64,000 nt of DNA, taken from Betaproteobacteria bacterium (GTDB lineage: Bacteria > Pseudomonadota > Gammaproteobacteria > Burkholderiales > Burkholderiaceae_D). The notes beneath the pieces were generated by a model. That model was not told the origin of the DNA, did not search any database, and saw only the letters and a program-made list of their open reading frames with translations. This document shows positions 49,678 to 57,008 of the stretch, piece by piece. The stretch's first letter is position 1; each line of letters starts with the position of its first letter. The stretch is taken from NCBI GenBank assembly GCA_025362735.1, contig JANYFL010000038.1, positions 62,001 through 126,000 on the forward strand, read 5' to 3'. The translations under genes were made by a program, and so were the position numbers.

Positions 49678-49747
49678 ACTCAGGGCGAACGGAAAATTGT
49701 TTGAGCCGTCGGCAAACTGAACTGCAATCTGCGGTCTGGAAAGTTTG

Positions 49748-51382
49748 ATGACTACATCGCTGCAACCCTATGACGCCGTAATCATCGGTGGCGGCCATAA
49801 CGGCTTGGTTTGCGCTTGCTATCTTGCGGCACGCGGACTCAAGGTGCGTGTTCTGGAACGGCGTCATGTCCTCGGGGGCGCGGCGGTCACCGAAGAATTT
49901 CATCCGGGCTTTCGTAACAGCACGGCGAGTTATACCGTCAGCTTGCTGCATCCATCGGTGATTCGCGATTTAAAGTTGTATGAACATGGCTTGCGCATTG
50001 TCGAGCGCCCCTTCTCAAATTTCCTGCCGCTACAAGATGGATCATCTTTCTTGAAATTGGGCGGTGGACTCGAAGCGACGCAACGTGAAGTCGCCAAATT
50101 CTCGCCTCGTGATGCCGAGCGTTTGCCTGCCTATTACGCCATGCTGGATCGCGTCGTGGCTGTGTTGCGTAGTCTGTTGCAGAAGACGCCGCCCAATATC
50201 GGCGACAAAGGTTTTGCGACGTTTGTGGATTGGGCGCGAGCCTTCAGCACGAGTCGACAATTCGGCAAGCTTGATTTGCCGGGCAAGCGTGACTTGCTGG
50301 CCTTGTTCACACAAAGTGCAGGCGATTTACTCGATCAATGGTTCGAATCGGAACCGATCAAAGCAGCTCTGGGTTTCGATTCCATTGTGGGTCATTACGC
50401 CAGTCCCTACACACCCGGCTCGGCTTATGTGCTGCTGCATCACGTGTTTGGCGAAGTCAACGGCAAGTCCGGTACCTGGGGACATGCAATCGGTGGCATG
50501 GGTGCGATTACGCAAGCGATGGCGAAGGAAGCGCTTGCACGAGGTGTCGAGTTGTCCGTCAATCAGCCAGTGTTGCAGGTACTGATCAAGCAGGACAAGG
50601 CGGTTGGGGTTGTATTGGAAGACGGCAGCGAAATTCATGCGAAGCAGGTCATTGCCAACGTCAATCCAAAGTTGTTGTTTGGACGCATGGTTGCGGCGGA
50701 ACGCTTACCAGATGACTTCAACCAGCGTATGCAGAATTACCGTTGTGGTTCTGGCACCTTCCGCATGAATGTGGCGCTCTCCGAATTGCCTGATTTCGTT
50801 GCATTACCGGGAACCCATCAGCAAGCGCACCATGGTGCGGGCATTGTTCTCGCGCCCTCGCTCGCGTATATGGAGCAGGCTTACTTTGATGCGCGACAGT
50901 ACGGCTGGAGTCTGCGACCGGTAGTGGAAATGCTGATTCCGAGCACCGTTGATGACAGTCTTGCACCACAAGGCCAACATGTAGCCAGCCTGTTTTGTCA
51001 GCAGTTTGCACCGCATCTTGATGCGACTCGATTCCCACAGGGCTGGGCCGGCAACGCTGACCTTAGCCCGCGTGAAGCCGCTGCCGATACCATCATTGAA
51101 ACGGTGACGCGCTTTGCGCCCAATTTCCAGGCGAGCGTCATCGCCAGACAGATTCATTCGCCCGAAGATCTTGAAACCAAGTTTGGCCTGGTCGATGGCG
51201 ATATTTTTCATGGCAAACTGAGTCTCGACCAGTTGTTCTCAGCACGGCCTGTGTTGGGTCATGCCGATTACCGCACACCGGTTCGTAATCTTTATTTGTG
51301 TGGTTCCGGCACGCATCCGGGTGGGGGCGTTACGGGATTGCCGGGCCAGAATGCGGCACGGGAAATTCTGCGGGATAATTGA
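49748..51382 (+). CDS. PYROXD2/phytoene-desaturase-like FAD oxidoreductase
   Basis: A 544-residue flavoprotein of the CrtI-like group. AVIIGGGHNGLVCACYLAARG is the N-terminal dinucleotide loop (quoted in part: GGGHNGLVCACYLAARG), followed by VLERRHVLGGAAVTEEFHPG; the C-terminus has LYLCGSGTHPGGGVTGLPG, the usual FAD contact. PYROXD2-type proteins are not carotenoid enzymes as far as known. No carotenoid genes are near. The frame starts with ATG 49748 preceded by TTG 49745. Confidence 0.85.
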   Translation: MTTSLQPYDAVIIGGGHNGLVCACYLAARGLKVRVLERRHVLGGAAVTEEFHPGFRNSTASYTVSLLHPSVIRDLKLYEHGLRIVERPFSNFLPLQDGSSFLKLGGGLEATQREVAKFSPRDAERLPAYYAMLDRVVAVLRSLLQKTPPNIGDKGFATFVDWARAFSTSRQFGKLDLPGKRDLLALFTQSAGDLLDQWFESEPIKAALGFDSIVGHYASPYTPGSAYVLLHHVFGEVNGKSGTWGHAIGGMGAITQAMAKEALARGVELSVNQPVLQVLIKQDKAVGVVLEDGSEIHAKQVIANVNPKLLFGRMVAAERLPDDFNQRMQNYRCGSGTFRMNVALSELPDFVALPGTHQQAHHGAGIVLAPSLAYMEQAYFDARQYGWSLRPVVEMLIPSTVDDSLAPQGQHVASLFCQQFAPHLDATRFPQGWAGNADLSPREAAADTIIETVTRFAPNFQASVIARQIHSPEDLETKFGLVDGDIFHGKLSLDQLFSARPVLGHADYRTPVRNLYLCGSGTHPGGGVTGLPGQNAAREILRDN

Positions 51383-51479
51383 TGCAGTAACAAAGCAGCA
51401 TGGTTGGTTTTGTTCCCTGCCCTTCAAGGGGAGGAGTCCTTAAGCGTTTCCGCCCCATCGACCCTGAAGGAACTGCATC

Positions 51480-52346
51480 ATGAAATGGCAAGATGGTCGT
51501 GAAAGTCAGAATGTAGAAGACCGGCGTGGCAGCGGTGGCGGGGGCGGTCGTTTTCCGGGTGGCGGCAAGATCGGCATCGGCACGATTGTCATTGCACTGG
51601 CAGCCTCTTATTTCTTTGGCATTGATCCGAGTGTGATTCTCGGTTTGGCAGGCTCAGGCAATCCCACGACCCAGCAACCTCAGTCCCAACTCACCAATGA
51701 CGAAATGGGCAAGTTCATCAAGGTCGTGTTGGGCGACACAGAAGACACTTGGGCTGCCATTTTCAAGCGATCGGGTCAGGACTATCGCCAGCCGCACCTT
51801 GTTTTGTTTTCCAATTCGACTTCCACCGATTGCGGTCAGGGAAACGCGGCCTCGGGTCCGTTCTACTGTCCTGCTGACGAGACGGTGTACATCGATCTGA
51901 ATTTTTACGAGTTGCTGCGAACCCGTTTCAAAGCCTCGGGGGATTTTGCGCAAGCCTATGTGATTGCCCATGAAGTGGGTCATCACGTACAGAATATGCT
52001 GGGTGCGACGGCCAAAATGCAGGACTTGCGCGGGCGTTTGTCCGAGGCTGATTTCAACAAGGTTTCGGTGCGAATGGAATTACAGGCTGATTGTTACGCG
52101 GGAGTGTGGGCACATCGTCTCAAAACCGGACAAAGTCCGATCAAGCTGGATCCCGGTGATGTTGAGGAGGCCCTCAATGCTGCCGCAGCTATTGGTGACG
52201 ATACCCTGCAAAAGCAGGCGACGGGCCACGTCGTGCCGGAGAGCTTTACGCATGGAACATCACAACTTCGCGTGACCTGGCTTAAACAAGGTATCGACAG
52301 CGGTGACATGAACTCATGCGATACGTTTGATGGGGTATGGAATTAA
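51480..52346 (+). CDS. ypfJ: Neutral zinc metallopeptidase, YpfJ family
   Basis: A 288-residue predicted membrane-anchored metalloprotease. The N-terminal MKWQDGRESQNVEDRRG is the family signature, a glycine-rich stretch and one transmembrane helix follow (about residues 36-62), and the zinc site is VIAHEVGHHVQNMLG (HEVGHH, H164 and H168 by rough count) with a distal ELQADCYAGVWAH. Substrates are unknown. It lies between the flavoprotein and DUF493 genes. Confidence 0.93.
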   Translation: MKWQDGRESQNVEDRRGSGGGGGRFPGGGKIGIGTIVIALAASYFFGIDPSVILGLAGSGNPTTQQPQSQLTNDEMGKFIKVVLGDTEDTWAAIFKRSGQDYRQPHLVLFSNSTSTDCGQGNAASGPFYCPADETVYIDLNFYELLRTRFKASGDFAQAYVIAHEVGHHVQNMLGATAKMQDLRGRLSEADFNKVSVRMELQADCYAGVWAHRLKTGQSPIKLDPGDVEEALNAAAAIGDDTLQKQATGHVVPESFTHGTSQLRVTWLKQGIDSGDMNSCDTFDGVWN

Positions 52347-52397: not shown

Positions 52398-52664
52398 ATG
52401 GCTGAGCTCGACAGCATCATCGAATATCCACTCGATTTTCCCATCAAGGTGATGGGGCTGAATGAGCCGGAATTTGTCGCGCTGGTCAGTGCGCTGGTCT
52501 TGCAGTACGCGCCGGATTTTGATTTGGCGACACTGGAATCGAGACCTTCGCGCGAAGGCAAGTATGTGAGTCTGACCGCGACCATCAACGCGACTAGCCG
52601 CGAGCAGCTTGATGACTTGTATCGTGCCTTATCAAGTCACCCGATGGTGAAGATGGCGTTGTAG
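52398..52664 (+). CDS. DUF493/YbeD-family protein
   Basis: An 88-residue small protein. IEYPLDFPIKVMGLNEPEFV at the start, SREGKYVSLTATINATSREQ and LDDLYRALSSHPMVKMAL at the end are the YbeD signature, an ACT-like fold. It normally precedes lipB and lipA in beta- and gammaproteobacteria; here no lipB follows. Instead its last 71 bp overlap the converging histidine kinase gene. Confidence 0.92.
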   Translation: MAELDSIIEYPLDFPIKVMGLNEPEFVALVSALVLQYAPDFDLATLESRPSREGKYVSLTATINATSREQLDDLYRALSSHPMVKMAL

Positions 52665-54084
52665 TCGTATTCGCATTCGTCGTTATATCGCTGCGAGACT
52701 CGGAACTGCGCCCAATCGGAAAAATCAGGGCTGCGCGCAGGCCGCCGCCAGGCGCATCACTCAATTCAATCCGCCCACCGTGCAGCTTGGTGACGTTTTG
52801 AACAACGGCCAGACCCAGGCCACAATGACCGGAATCACTGCGAGCGGCGTCCAGCCGGGCAAATGGTTGGAGTGCTTGTTCACGCATGTCATGGGGAATA
52901 CCAGGACCATGATCATCGACTTCGATTCGATAGCAATCTGATTTGCGTATGCCGCGCACACGCACGGGTGCTGCGCCATGCGTCAGCGCGTTGCTGACCA
53001 GATTATCGATCGCACGATCAATGGCAATGCGGTCTGCAGCAAAGCTATAAAGATCGACCCGCTGCAGGACAACATCTTGACCTGTTCCATGCCAGGATTC
53101 AATGCGATTCATGATCAGCGAATGAATGTCGACACGTTCGAATTTGCTTTGATCATTGTCGAGCCCACGCAGATAGGCAACGAATTGATTAGCGATACGT
53201 TCGACTTCGCTAAAGTCTCTTTCAAAGCCGCGTTTGGTTTCAGCTTCTTCGGGGCTGTCCATCAATGCCAGTCTGAGTTTGGCTCGGGTCAGCGGGGCGC
53301 GCAGATCATGCGGCAAACCTGCCAACATCACACGTCGTTCAGCATCGTGATCGGCAAGACGTTCAGCCATGGAATTGAATTGACTGGTCACGGCGCGCAC
53401 TTCGTCTGGTCCAGCCAACGGTAGTTGCGGGCGCTGTCCCAATTCAAAATTTCCTGCGGCCTGAGCCAGCGCACGCAAAGGTCGCGACAGCTGCAACACA
53501 TAAAGCGAAACCAGTGTGACCACCAACATCACGCCTGCCACGATAGAAAAAATGATCGTCCAGGGAATGGGCGCCTGAAATCCCTGTGGTGGAATCATCA
53601 GCCACCAGTTGTCCTTATGCATACGGATCCACAGGATCTCATTGGGCGGCATGGTATGACGCACTGTACCGAAGCCATAACGTCGACTTAAATATCGTAC
53701 CAGATCATTCGAAAATATTCCGTTGTCATTCGGATCGTTCAGGCTGGCAATGTTTTGGTTCGTACCGCTTTCCATGCCATTGCGCTCATCTGCAACCAGG
53801 GATGGATCAAAGGTACGCAGCGCCGGCACCGGGGGGTCCTTGAGCAAACGAATCCGCATACCCGTATTGCCCACCAGATGCCGTGCCACTTCTTCTGGTG
53901 GCGAACGCTGCAGGGCGGTGCGCACCAATGAGACATAACTTCCCACGACTTCACGGCCACGTTGCTCTAAAAAGTCATAACGGAAGCGTGCGAATACGCC
54001 GAAAGTGATGGCTTCGCAGGCAATGATGGCGGCCATGGTCAGCAACAAGGTGCGCGCCCTTAGCGAGCGCGGAAAAAAATTCAC
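52594..54084 (-). CDS. EnvZ-like sensor histidine kinase
   Basis: A 496-residue inner-membrane kinase. Transmembrane segments lie at about residues 12-34 and 176-198 with a ~140-residue periplasmic sensor between, then a HAMP linker, phospho-acceptor LPHDLRAPLTR (H259) and ATPase motifs DHGPGIPHDMREQ and GHCGLGLAVVQ. HDLR-x-PLTR is EnvZ-like. The GTG start overlaps the regulator stop by four bases, so it is coupled to it. The last 25 or so residues are low-complexity Thr/Ser and overlap the DUF493 gene on the other strand. The signal sensed is unknown. Confidence 0.9.
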   Translation of the reverse strand: MNFFPRSLRARTLLLTMAAIIACEAITFGVFARFRYDFLEQRGREVVGSYVSLVRTALQRSPPEEVARHLVGNTGMRIRLLKDPPVPALRTFDPSLVADERNGMESGTNQNIASLNDPNDNGIFSNDLVRYLSRRYGFGTVRHTMPPNEILWIRMHKDNWWLMIPPQGFQAPIPWTIIFSIVAGVMLVVTLVSLYVLQLSRPLRALAQAAGNFELGQRPQLPLAGPDEVRAVTSQFNSMAERLADHDAERRVMLAGLPHDLRAPLTRAKLRLALMDSPEEAETKRGFERDFSEVERIANQFVAYLRGLDNDQSKFERVDIHSLIMNRIESWHGTGQDVVLQRVDLYSFAADRIAIDRAIDNLVSNALTHGAAPVRVRGIRKSDCYRIEVDDHGPGIPHDMREQALQPFARLDAARSDSGHCGLGLAVVQNVTKLHGGRIELSDAPGGGLRAALIFPIGRSSESRSDITTNANTTTTPSSPSGDLIRHDTSHQAARG

Positions 54085-54875
54085 GCGTCACTTCCTTTTG
54101 ATGATTCCGATTCTGCAATATCGTTATTGCTTTCGCCCGTTGGTACAAAGACATAGCCGAGTCCCCAGATGGTACGGATATAACGTGGACGGGAGGGGTC
54201 GTCTTCAATGCTGCGACGCAGGCGATAGATCTGCATGTCGATTGCACGATCCAGACTGTCGGTATCGCCACCGCGGGTCAATTCCAGCAGACGCTCGCGC
54301 TTGAGAGGGCGGTTCGCATTGCGAATCAGCACCGACAGCAAACTGAATTCGCCTCCGGTTAAATTAATCAGGTTGCCCTCGCGGCGTAGCTCCCGGGCAT
54401 CGAAGTCGCAGCTGAATGGACCGAAATGAAAAGGCTTTGATAAGCCTTCGAAAGGCATGGTCGGGTTGCGTCGTAATACGGCTTCAATACGTGCAAGTAG
54501 CTCGCGTGCTTCAAACGGTTTGCCAAGGTAATCGTCGGCACCCATTTCAAGGCCGAGAATACGATCAACCGCTTCATCCCGAGCGGTCAGCATGATAATC
54601 GGGACCGATTCGCCCCCATTTTTGGCTCCGCTGGTGCGCAGTCTGCGGCAAGCCGTCAAACCATCTTCACCCGGCATCATCAGGTCGAGAATCACGAGGT
54701 GCGGGCTGTAGCGTTCGAGATAGGTGTCGAGCTGAACTGTATCGGGAAGTAACAGTACGTCGAAGCCGTGCCGGGTCAAATAACTGGAGAGCAGTTGACG
54801 CAACTCGGCGTCATCGTCCACGACCAGGAGGCGACGTTTGATAGGAAGTGACGATTTATCTTGTGTTGAAGGCAT
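54081..54875 (-). CDS. ompR: OmpR-family response regulator
   Basis: A 264-residue regulator with phospho-acceptor Asp in HLVILDLMMPGEDG (D64), switch Lys in GKPFEARELLARIEAVLRR, and a winged-helix domain with SLDRAIDMQIYRLRRSIEDD and IRTIWGLGYVF, which is OmpR-like. The second ATG (54875) has AGGA eight bases upstream; the first (54881) has it only two bases away, so the shorter form is chosen. It pairs with the EnvZ-like kinase and is divergent from a Spy/CpxP-like gene. Confidence 0.9.
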   Translation of the reverse strand: MPSTQDKSSLPIKRRLLVVDDDAELRQLLSSYLTRHGFDVLLLPDTVQLDTYLERYSPHLVILDLMMPGEDGLTACRRLRTSGAKNGGESVPIIMLTARDEAVDRILGLEMGADDYLGKPFEARELLARIEAVLRRNPTMPFEGLSKPFHFGPFSCDFDARELRREGNLINLTGGEFSLLSVLIRNANRPLKRERLLELTRGGDTDSLDRAIDMQIYRLRRSIEDDPSRPRYIRTIWGLGYVFVPTGESNNDIAESESSKGSDA

Positions 54876-54929
54876 GCTCATGGTCCTGTCATTCTAGACA
54901 GTGCTTGTATCTGCAACCAAACGGGAAAC

Positions 54930-54946
54930 AATTTGATACTAATTTG
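54930..54946. promoter_or_regulatory. Direct repeat AATTTG-N5-AATTTG between ompR-like and Spy-like genes
   Basis: AATTTG at 54930-54935 and again at 54941-54946 are spaced 11 bp apart, the phase used by OmpR/CpxR-family regulators. The repeat lies in the 157-bp gap between the divergent regulator and the Spy-like gene. It is a candidate binding site for the regulator; only the spacing and place support it. Confidence 0.4.
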
Positions 54947-55032
54947 TTCGGGGCGTGATGGTTTGGAGATGAATGCCTGGCGTAGTCTGAAGATAATGAA
55001 ATCATCGTATTTCATACCACCAGGAGAGCACC

Positions 55033-55725
55033 ATGAAAGTTCATTCCAGCATTCCCAGGATTTGGCGCAAGTCAGTCATTGTATCGGCAGCCGCTCTCGT
55101 TACGGCAGTTGCTTTCGCGCAAAGCGCGCCGACCCCGCCTACTGGGCCGCATCCAGCGCGACCCGGTATGGAGCACGGGATGCAACACCCGGACATGGAC
55201 CACGAGCATGGAGGTTTTTTCATGCCCCATCAACTGGCCGGACTGAAGACATCGCTGCACCTGACACCACAACAAACAGCGTTATGGGACAAGGCCGAGA
55301 AAGCCATGACGCCTCCACCTGACGCACGTGCCAAGATGGAAGAAATGATGAAAGCGCATCATGCTCAAGCCTTGGCGGCGCTGGCCGATCCCAAGTTTGA
55401 TCCGCGCAAGTTCGCGGCAGAACAGGAAAAGCAACGGGATGAAATGCAAGCCCAGCGCAAAGCCAGAATGAACACCATCCAGGAAGCCTGGTTTACGGTT
55501 TACGACAGCCTGGATGCGGGTCAACGTGGGCAAGTGCGGGAATTCTTGCGGACTCGTTTCGAGATGAGAGCCAAGGCATGGCATCACCACGGCGAACGAG
55601 ATGGAATGAAGGGTGAACATGGCGACCGCAAAGATGAGCATGCCAGCAGCAGTCATGAGGGCACCTACTTCAAACAGAGTCTTCCTTCAGATGCCATTGC
55701 CAAGCCACTGGTAAAAATGTCTTGA
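55033..55725 (+). CDS. Spy/CpxP-family periplasmic protein
   Basis: A 230-residue protein with a signal peptide (about residues 1-33, ending AFAQS) and a His/Met-rich mature start (MEHGMQHPDMDHEHGG), possibly metal-binding. LHLTPQQTALWDKAEKAM and a second helical LTxxQ-like region belong to the Spy/CpxP fold, which holds unfolded periplasmic proteins and, in CpxP, restrains the kinase CpxA. The C-terminal end is again His-rich (AKAWHHHGERDG). Being divergent from a two-component pair mirrors cpxP/cpxRA. GGAGAG precedes the ATG. Confidence 0.85.
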   Translation: MKVHSSIPRIWRKSVIVSAAALVTAVAFAQSAPTPPTGPHPARPGMEHGMQHPDMDHEHGGFFMPHQLAGLKTSLHLTPQQTALWDKAEKAMTPPPDARAKMEEMMKAHHAQALAALADPKFDPRKFAAEQEKQRDEMQAQRKARMNTIQEAWFTVYDSLDAGQRGQVREFLRTRFEMRAKAWHHHGERDGMKGEHGDRKDEHASSSHEGTYFKQSLPSDAIAKPLVKMS

Positions 55726-55744
55726 GGGGTCAATTCAGATAACC

Positions 55745-55777
55745 AAGCCGCTGCGGATGAAACCCAGCGGCTTTTTT
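55745..55777 (+). terminator. Intrinsic terminator after the Spy-like gene
   Basis: AAGCCGCTG (55745-55753) pairs with CAGCGGCTT (55765-55773), followed by a T run to 55777. It is placed 20 bp after the Spy-like stop and is a convincing rho-independent terminator. Confidence 0.85.
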
Positions 55778-55793
55778 CATGCCCTAATAAAAA

Positions 55794-55856
55794 GCTCCCG
55801 AGACCAAGGCTAGCGTCGCGGGAGCAAGGATTCCGCTCCAGAGAGCGAGCGGAATC
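55794..55856. other. Two tandem GC-rich hairpins
   Basis: GCTCCCG (55794-55800) pairs with CGGGAGC (55819-55825), and GATTCCGCTC (55829-55838) with GAGCGGAATC (55847-55856). They lie right after the terminator in a 356-bp gene-free gap before the rpoH 3' end. No reading frame or known RNA family was recognised; a small structured RNA or repeat remnant is possible. Confidence 0.4.
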
Positions 55857-55871
55857 GGGGAAAATTTTGGC

Positions 55872-56085
55872 TTAACTTCGGCCTAAGGAGTCTCTGATTA
55901 AGTCCATTCAAAACCAAAAATCTTGACACAGAGAACACAGAGCCTATTGAGGACACCGAGAAAAGCAAGAGCGGATGTTTACCGAAAAATCTCTGTGTTC
56001 CTCTACGACCTCTGTGTCTCTGTGTTGAGAGGTTTTGGCCCGTACCTCTCACCCCTTATTCGGCGTCTCTTTAACTTCGGCTTAA
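55872..56085. repeat. 15-bp direct repeat flanking a palindromic element at the rpoH 3' end
   Basis: TTAACTTCGGCCTAA (55872-55886) and TTAACTTCGGCTTAA (56071-56085) differ at one base and bracket the repeat at 55923-56035. The right copy covers the rpoH stop codon (minus strand). The layout suggests duplication of the gene end during insertion, or two hits of a short repeat. Confidence 0.5.
55923..56035. repeat. Palindromic intergenic repeat, CAGAGGCGCAGAG family, copy 3
   Basis: Left arm TTGACACAGAGAACACAGAG; right arm CTCTGTGTCTCTGTGTTGAG. The loop is longer than in copies 1 and 2. It fills the gap between the Spy-like and rpoH genes and shares the end TGTGTTGAGAGGTTT with copy 2. Confidence 0.65.
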
Positions 56086-57008
56086 CGATAGGCGGCCAGA
56101 GCCGTTTTCATTTTCTTCATCGCGGCAACTTCGATCTGGCGAATGCGTTCGGCAGAAACGCCGAATTCGTAAGCCAGATCATGCAAGGTCGCTTGACCAA
56201 CACTGCCGTCGGTTTCTTCATTCAGCCAGCGGGCTTCGACGATGCGTCGGCTACGCTCGTCCAGCTTGTCCAACGCAGCGGTGATGCCTTCGTTATGCAG
56301 ACGATCTTTCTGGCGAGCCGCCAGAATTTGGGTCGGCTCGTTGTGCTCGTCTTTCAGATAGGCAATCGGAGCGAAAGATTCTTCGCCATCATCAATCTGA
56401 CCTTCAATCGCGACATCGCCGCCGGAAAGGCGCATTTCCATCTCAACGACTTCTTCCGGCTTGACGTTGAGTTCTTTCGCCATTGCATTGACTTGGTCGG
56501 GCGACAAGGTGCTCGAACCGGTCTTCAGCGAGCGCAGGTTGAAGAACAGCTTGCGCTGGGCTTTGGTGGTTGCGACCTTGACCAGACGCCAGTTCTTCAG
56601 AATGTATTCGTGAATTTCGGCCTTGATCCAGTGCATGGCAAACGAGACCAGACGTACACCGCGATCCGGGTCGAAACGCTTCACGGCCTTCATCAAGCCG
56701 ACGTTGCCTTCCTGAATCAGATCAGCATGCGGCAAGCCGTAGCCGAGATAGCCGCGGGCAATCGAAACGACCAGACGCAAGTGCGAAAGCACCAGCTGGC
56801 GCGCTGCGCTCAGGTCTTCTGTATCGCGAAAGCGTGTGGCCAGCTCGGTTTCTTGTTCGGCCGTCAACAAGGGCAGGCGGTTGATGGCCTGGATATAGTT
56901 GTCAATACTGCCGAGCGCGCCCGGGTTGGCAATGGCCAACATCAAGCTGTTGCTCGAAGCGGTGGGCGCCGGGATCAGCGCATTGGGTTGCATAGCCAAG
57001 CTCGTCAT
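56082..57008 (-). CDS. rpoH: Heat-shock sigma factor RpoH (sigma-32)
   Basis: Directs RNA polymerase to heat-shock promoters. The 308-residue protein has region 2 with LIQEGNVGLMKAVKRFDPDR and VSFAMHWIKAEIHEYIL, the RpoH box QRKLFFNLRS, and a region 4.2 helix-turn-helix LHDLAYEFGVSAERIRQIE. An ATG at 57006-57008 with TGGAGA upstream starts it. A perfect CIRCE element 75 bp upstream suggests HrcA control in addition to the usual post-translational control. It follows ftsX in the same order as in E. coli. Confidence 0.96.
   Translation of the reverse strand: MTSLAMQPNALIPAPTASSNSLMLAIANPGALGSIDNYIQAINRLPLLTAEQETELATRFRDTEDLSAARQLVLSHLRLVVSIARGYLGYGLPHADLIQEGNVGLMKAVKRFDPDRGVRLVSFAMHWIKAEIHEYILKNWRLVKVATTKAQRKLFFNLRSLKTGSSTLSPDQVNAMAKELNVKPEEVVEMEMRLSGGDVAIEGQIDDGEESFAPIAYLKDEHNEPTQILAARQKDRLHNEGITAALDKLDERSRRIVEARWLNEETDGSVGQATLHDLAYEFGVSAERIRQIEVAAMKKMKTALAAYR

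Follow-up and report, generated by a model that had tools for sequence, protein, structure and literature searches.

In Escherichia coli the overlapping genes of the regulator CpxR and the kinase CpxA diverge from the gene of CpxP, a periplasmic LTXXQ protein that restrains CpxA (PMC6737893). In Pseudomonas an LTXXQ gene has been placed beside cpxR and under the control of cpxR (PMC5063474). A Cpx-type envelope-stress role can also be filled by another lineage, since AmgRS of Pseudomonas aeruginosa is presented in the relevant text as an OmpR-EnvZ homologue doing that job, with no divergent Spy gene described for it there (PMC6173428). Here we analyse a locus of a betaproteobacterium in which an OmpR/EnvZ-type pair, named OmpR2/EnvZ2, diverges from a gene for a Spy-like protein. 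The locus lies on contig JANYFL010000038.1 (assembly GCA_025362735.1) in what we call the window, a 64-kb stretch analysed as a whole and part of a draft genome of 3.0 Mb in 71 contigs. An original prediction made from the letters alone had read it as a Cpx-like unit. Our search of open-licence papers found none on this locus, nor any on betaproteobacterial paralogues of OmpR/EnvZ from which a Spy gene diverges. The features are as follows.

52594-54084, minus strand: envZ2, EnvZ-like sensor histidine kinase with a GTG start (open reading frame, domain and family profiles), consisting of an N-terminal membrane part (by eye), a RisS-like periplasmic domain, HAMP, a PHDLRAPL H-box and an HCGLGL ATP-lid motif
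53560-53997, minus strand: stretch of EnvZ2 (146 residues) used as input for the periplasmic sensor model
54081-54881, minus strand: ompR2, OmpR-like response regulator (Response_reg and Trans_reg_C)
54891-54896, minus strand: TAGAAT, -10-like hexamer of ompR2 chosen by eye, 28 base pairs (bp) from the tandem
54925-54944, plus strand: conserved 10-bp tandem GAAACAATTT-GATACTAATT, proposed operator of OmpR2
54930-54946, plus strand: AATTTG-N5-AATTTG repeat, overlapping the proposed operator, register not conserved
55033-55725, plus strand: secreted LTXXQ protein (Spy/CpxP/CnrX-type) of 230 residues, with His/Met-containing tails around a helical core

The OmpR2/EnvZ2 pair and its Spy-like neighbour

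Open reading frames were found where the prediction had put the genes, with ompR2 and envZ2 sharing four bases (GTGA) and the Spy-like gene diverging from ompR2. On the OmpR equivalog model OmpR2 scored 295 bits, below the cut-off of 331, and EnvZ2, a HAMP/HATPase_c kinase in the domain profile search, scored 218.6 bits on the EnvZ equivalog model (cut-off 415), under which the canonical EnvZ of the same genome (271.6 bits) also falls. Identity of OmpR2 with CpxR (147 bits vs a cut-off of 341) and of EnvZ2 with CpxA (133.6 vs 486) was considered and rejected. A second OmpR/EnvZ pair is encoded elsewhere in the genome (G000:C47) with 51% and 34% identity to the pair studied here; the regulator of this second pair, at 419 bits, passes the OmpR cut-off of 331, and the kinase carries the usual SHDLRT box. 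In a tree of 94 regulators, whose bootstrap was not fully settled, OmpR2 is placed among OmpR proteins. The seven OmpR2 proteins of the window and its relatives form a single clade (100/98), to which Rhodocyclus is sister (100/100). They fall outside the group containing the own canonical OmpR, which stands beside Oxalobacteraceae OmpR proteins (99/87); E. coli CpxR lies outside the OmpR proteins on a long branch. Judged by profiles and tree, OmpR2/EnvZ2 is a divergent paralogue of OmpR/EnvZ and not CpxRA. The predicted Cpx-like unit thus survives as a conserved layout, an analogy, and not as common ancestry: the locus is not orthologous to CpxRA-CpxP, from which it differs in predicted sensor domain, proposed operator and H-box.

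The canonical OmpR gene (locus L151, 3589-4978) is itself divergent from a gene for a small secreted Arg-rich protein, for which no Pfam family was found above cut-off, and a GAAACAATGTGTTACAAACT site lies between the two or at the start of the latter.

EnvZ2 departs from most other OmpR-linked kinases at two motifs. The H-box had been called EnvZ-like rather than CpxA-like, which is right as to the EnvZ subfamily, but the box itself reads PHDLRA and not SHDLRT. In all seven genomes it is LPHDLRAPL, with Ala four residues after the phospho-acceptor His (H+4), whereas of the 80 named OmpR-linked kinases 78 have Thr, one has Pro and that of Rhodocyclus has Ala. The ATP lid is HCGLGL in 7/7 EnvZ2 proteins, RCGLGL in Rhodocyclus and GxGLGL in the other kinases (unreadable in one named row, L101). 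Both the Ala at the position of T247 and the altered lid are fixed across five genera. The exchange T247A abolishes the phosphatase activity of EnvZ (PMC5727384). Together the H+4 Ala and the lid suggest that EnvZ2 may be a poor phosphatase. A model of the periplasmic domain (predicted local distance difference test, pLDDT, of 71) had the RisS periplasmic domain as its five best structural rows with Z scores of 7.4-8.5, followed by an unrelated structure at 6.2, EnvZ reaching 4.1; the predicted sensor domain therefore most resembles RisS. The pair shares with RisA/RisS and canonical OmpR/EnvZ of Burkholderiales a superfamily and an OmpR-type tandem site, and its predicted sensor fold may be RisS-like; it differs from them as a second, divergent pair with PHDLRA for SHDLRT and HCGLGL for GxGLGL. 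Its likeness to AmgRS is one of putative role.

The predicted periplasmic LTxxQ protein was confirmed as a member of the LTXXQ family (PF07813), at 32.7 bits against a gathering cut-off of 24.3. Its model contains a confident helical core, at about residues 64-186, whose best structural rows are CpxP and Spy. Their Z scores of 6.5-7.3 do not reach the value recommended for helical bundles; a sequence profile search also picks Spy (E 0.0012). The protein belongs to the LTXXQ family, as do the periplasmic proteins Spy, CpxP and CnrX, and its predicted core probably resembles CpxP and Spy; unlike them it has long His/Met-containing tails, and when aligned structurally with chains of CpxP and Spy it shows 15-27% identity.

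Conservation of the set and of its intergenic tandem

The family sample comprised 294 genomes of 44 genera, the own genome included. Close relatives of EnvZ2 (E<=1e-70) were present in seven of these genomes, from five genera, and in 7/7 the Spy-like gene diverges from OmpR2. The Spy-like protein itself found matches at E<=0.001 in 71/294 genomes, eight of them strong (E<1e-15) and 63 weak. Seven of the eight strong matches adjoin an OmpR2/EnvZ2 pair, the remaining one (G089) being truncated where its contig ends, while none of the 24 weak loci inspected (of 63) had an OmpR or EnvZ match in its flanks. In the six relatives the set adjoins dat-ybeD, and on the right side lipB/lipA-like frames follow directly or one gene on (names by eye). 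The wiring of the three-gene set is thus well supported by conservation, and we regard the layout as real, conserved and probably functional.

Outside the close relatives, Rhodocyclus tenuis has OmpR2 (65%) and EnvZ2, then an LTXXQ gene of the same direction past a GGDEF-EAL gene. The latter (L041, 1757-4882; PAS-GGDEF-EAL-like, domains by eye) separates OmpR2 from the LTXXQ gene and points in the divergent direction. Order-wide, three further genomes of 399 contain a kinase at E<=1e-62, two carrying PHDLKG and the third being canonical. LTXXQ or Metal_resist genes are also divergent from OmpR at two loci (L047 and L097), as seen in a Pfam check of divergent frames at 80 named loci for which only 10 proteins were submitted. 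Since these two loci belong to another OmpR lineage, this suggests that the coupling of OmpR to LTXXQ genes arose more than once.

The region between ompR2 and the Spy-like gene had been predicted to hold an AATTTG-N5-AATTTG repeat in 11-bp phase. The repeat exists (AATTTGATACTAATTTG, 54930-54946) and is the sole copy in 64 kb, with 0.05 expected by chance and occurrence in 5/100 shuffles, for a pattern picked after the fact. Its register is not kept: in the six other genomes the best match covers 7-9/12 positions and the second half is lost, and this poor conservation ruled it out as the operator. The element that is conserved occupies the same DNA in a different register. When the intergenic regions of the five genera are compared, their best common 15-mer and 20-mer outscore 100/100 dinucleotide shuffles. 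The conserved stretch, which two genomes have as GAAACAATTTGCAAC and the window as GAAACAATTTGATAC, corresponds to the 10-bp tandem. The 10-bp consensus was drawn from the same seven genomes and its scores are descriptive; the shuffle test is independent of it. OmpR-type activators bind just upstream of the -35 region. The tandem stands 28 bases from a hexamer on the ompR2 strand (TAGAAT, TAAAAT or TAAACT, selected by eye) in 5/7 genomes (the other two have 23 and 39), and this spacing places it just upstream of the putative -35 region, which is the position of an OmpR-type operator. The comparison thus shows that three genes are kept together with a single OmpR-type tandem between them, at the position expected for a site from which the ompR2 promoter is activated.

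A wider regulon was sought by strict matching. The pattern GAAACAANNTGNAAY gave 14 sites in the seven genomes vs 2 for the control, five of the 14 being at this locus, and in three genomes (G010, G065 and G066) the single site of the genome is the one here. A second strict pattern, GAAACNNNTTGNNAC, had 4 sites in the own genome vs 10 for the backward control and was discarded as uninformative.

In 6/7 genomes the -10-like hexamer of ompR2 (in the window, 54881-54896 spans it and the start) lies 6-9 bases before the ATG, which would make the messenger RNA leaderless or nearly so. A gammaproteobacterial OmpR gene (L115, upstream of 5001) is preceded by GAAACAATTTGAAACATTTG, a nearly identical tandem; in these upstream-site scores N positions were counted as matches.

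Proposed working and its alternatives

We consider it on balance probable that the locus encodes an autoregulated envelope-stress pair, paralogous to OmpR/EnvZ, which has a divergent Spy-family gene of its own as output and probably also as feedback element. From the comparisons above we infer the signal, the operator binding and the feedback as follows. EnvZ2 would read an envelope signal through its RisS/EnvZ-type periplasmic domain, and phosphorylated OmpR2 would bind 54925-54944 and activate the Spy-like gene along with its own operon. The Spy-like protein would then hold unfolded envelope proteins, possibly also metal ions, and when free would damp EnvZ2 as CpxP damps CpxA. Because 7/7 kinases have Ala at the residue equivalent to T247, the system may be shut off chiefly by this feedback in the periplasm, perhaps in place of a weakened phosphatase. 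This leads us to a bolder proposal, which is speculative and which we ourselves doubt: an EnvZ naturally without its phosphatase half, whose shut-off has passed to a co-inherited, self-induced Spy-family protein, so that periplasmic feedback replaces cytoplasmic dephosphorylation and a duplicated OmpR/EnvZ has arrived at the layout of Cpx by convergence. If this were true, the locus would represent a natural one-way EnvZ and an independent path to that layout. Being small, it would let one ask whether a two-component system can be turned off mainly by a protein of the Spy/CpxP type, and also how a duplicated OmpR stays apart from the original while both use similar tandem sites.

Several observations weigh against such a working. 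In Rhodocyclus the GGDEF-EAL gene separates the Spy-like gene from the pair, and two genomes with distant kinases of the PHDLKG type (G609 and G495) lack any Spy gene within 12 kb, so this kinase type does not need one. Ala at H+4 is present in other kinases too. A sigma-70 scan gave no promoter at threshold, which is why the -10 of ompR2 was chosen by eye. The nine remaining GAAACAANNTGNAAY sites are mostly in or over coding frames, and strict operator matching in the seven genomes revealed no wider stress regulon. Finally, the gene of the own canonical OmpR has a similar site upstream (GAAACA..GTTACA), and canonical OmpR could therefore bind the site between ompR2 and the Spy-like gene as well.

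Among the alternatives, the original prediction had allowed for metals in the signal. The Spy-like protein would then be a metal binder of the CnrX/ZraP type with His/Met tails, and the kinase would answer copper, zinc or nickel. In the window protein both ends are indeed rich in His and Met, CnrX chains occur among the structural matches (Z 4.7-5.7) and the Metal_resist model matches weakly (18.3 bits, below its cut-off of 29.2). The predicted richness varies in the relatives, however, where these residues of the tails do not keep their positions and several proteins have few of them, and Spy and CpxP rank above CnrX. EnvZ2 scores 110.7 on the heavy-metal kinase model against a cut-off of 292.55, and inspection by eye of the genes next to the set, in the window as in the relatives, revealed no metal transporter or oxidase gene. 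The metal idea is weak, and we think a metal-responsive system unlikely.

An osmo- or acid-sensing duplicate of EnvZ/RisS with porin-type targets, in which the Spy-like gene plays a minor part, seems to us distinctly unlikely. It would fit the sensor model, whose best matches are RisS periplasmic structures, several of them solved at low pH, and the EnvZ score of 218.6 bits. Against it, strict matching, which would miss weak sites, placed no site before a recognisable porin gene, and the canonical OmpR/EnvZ is free for that job. For the same reason, a canonical OmpR elsewhere in the genome, the unrelated ordinary osmoregulation that the prediction had named as its refutation is unlikely.

There is also a slim chance that the site serves the genome's canonical OmpR, with the local pair regulating something else and the neighbourhood inherited without function. 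The similar site upstream of the canonical gene would allow this, as would the DNA-binding ends of the two regulators, which are alike by eye; the strict co-occurrence of three genes in five genera and the spacing to the -10-like hexamer of ompR2 favour local use. Descent from a genuine CpxRA-CpxP unit, suggested by gene order and overlap as in E. coli cpxRA/cpxP, is hardly credible given CpxR and CpxA scores far under cut-off, the grouping of OmpR2 with OmpR proteins to the exclusion of the long-branched E. coli CpxR, and a sensor model nearest to RisS.

Surroundings of the locus

Downstream of the Spy-like gene, an Rfam scan for a CpxQ-like small RNA gave only sub-threshold rows. The intergenic region at 55909-56037, likewise with only a sub-threshold Rfam row, contains many ctctgtg/cacagag repeats that could pair. 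The C-terminal extension of EnvZ2 (52594-52664, about 35 residues) overlaps the end of ybeD (DUF493) in antisense orientation, and the kinases of the relatives are shorter here. In the window dat and ybeD, adjacent in the relatives, are separated by a gene of the FAD-dependent amine-oxidase family (phytoene-desaturase-like) and a Zn_peptidase (YpfJ-type) gene (49745-52346). After the Spy-like gene, where the relatives have lipB-lipA, stands rpoH (55726-57008), and the own lipB is on contig C63.

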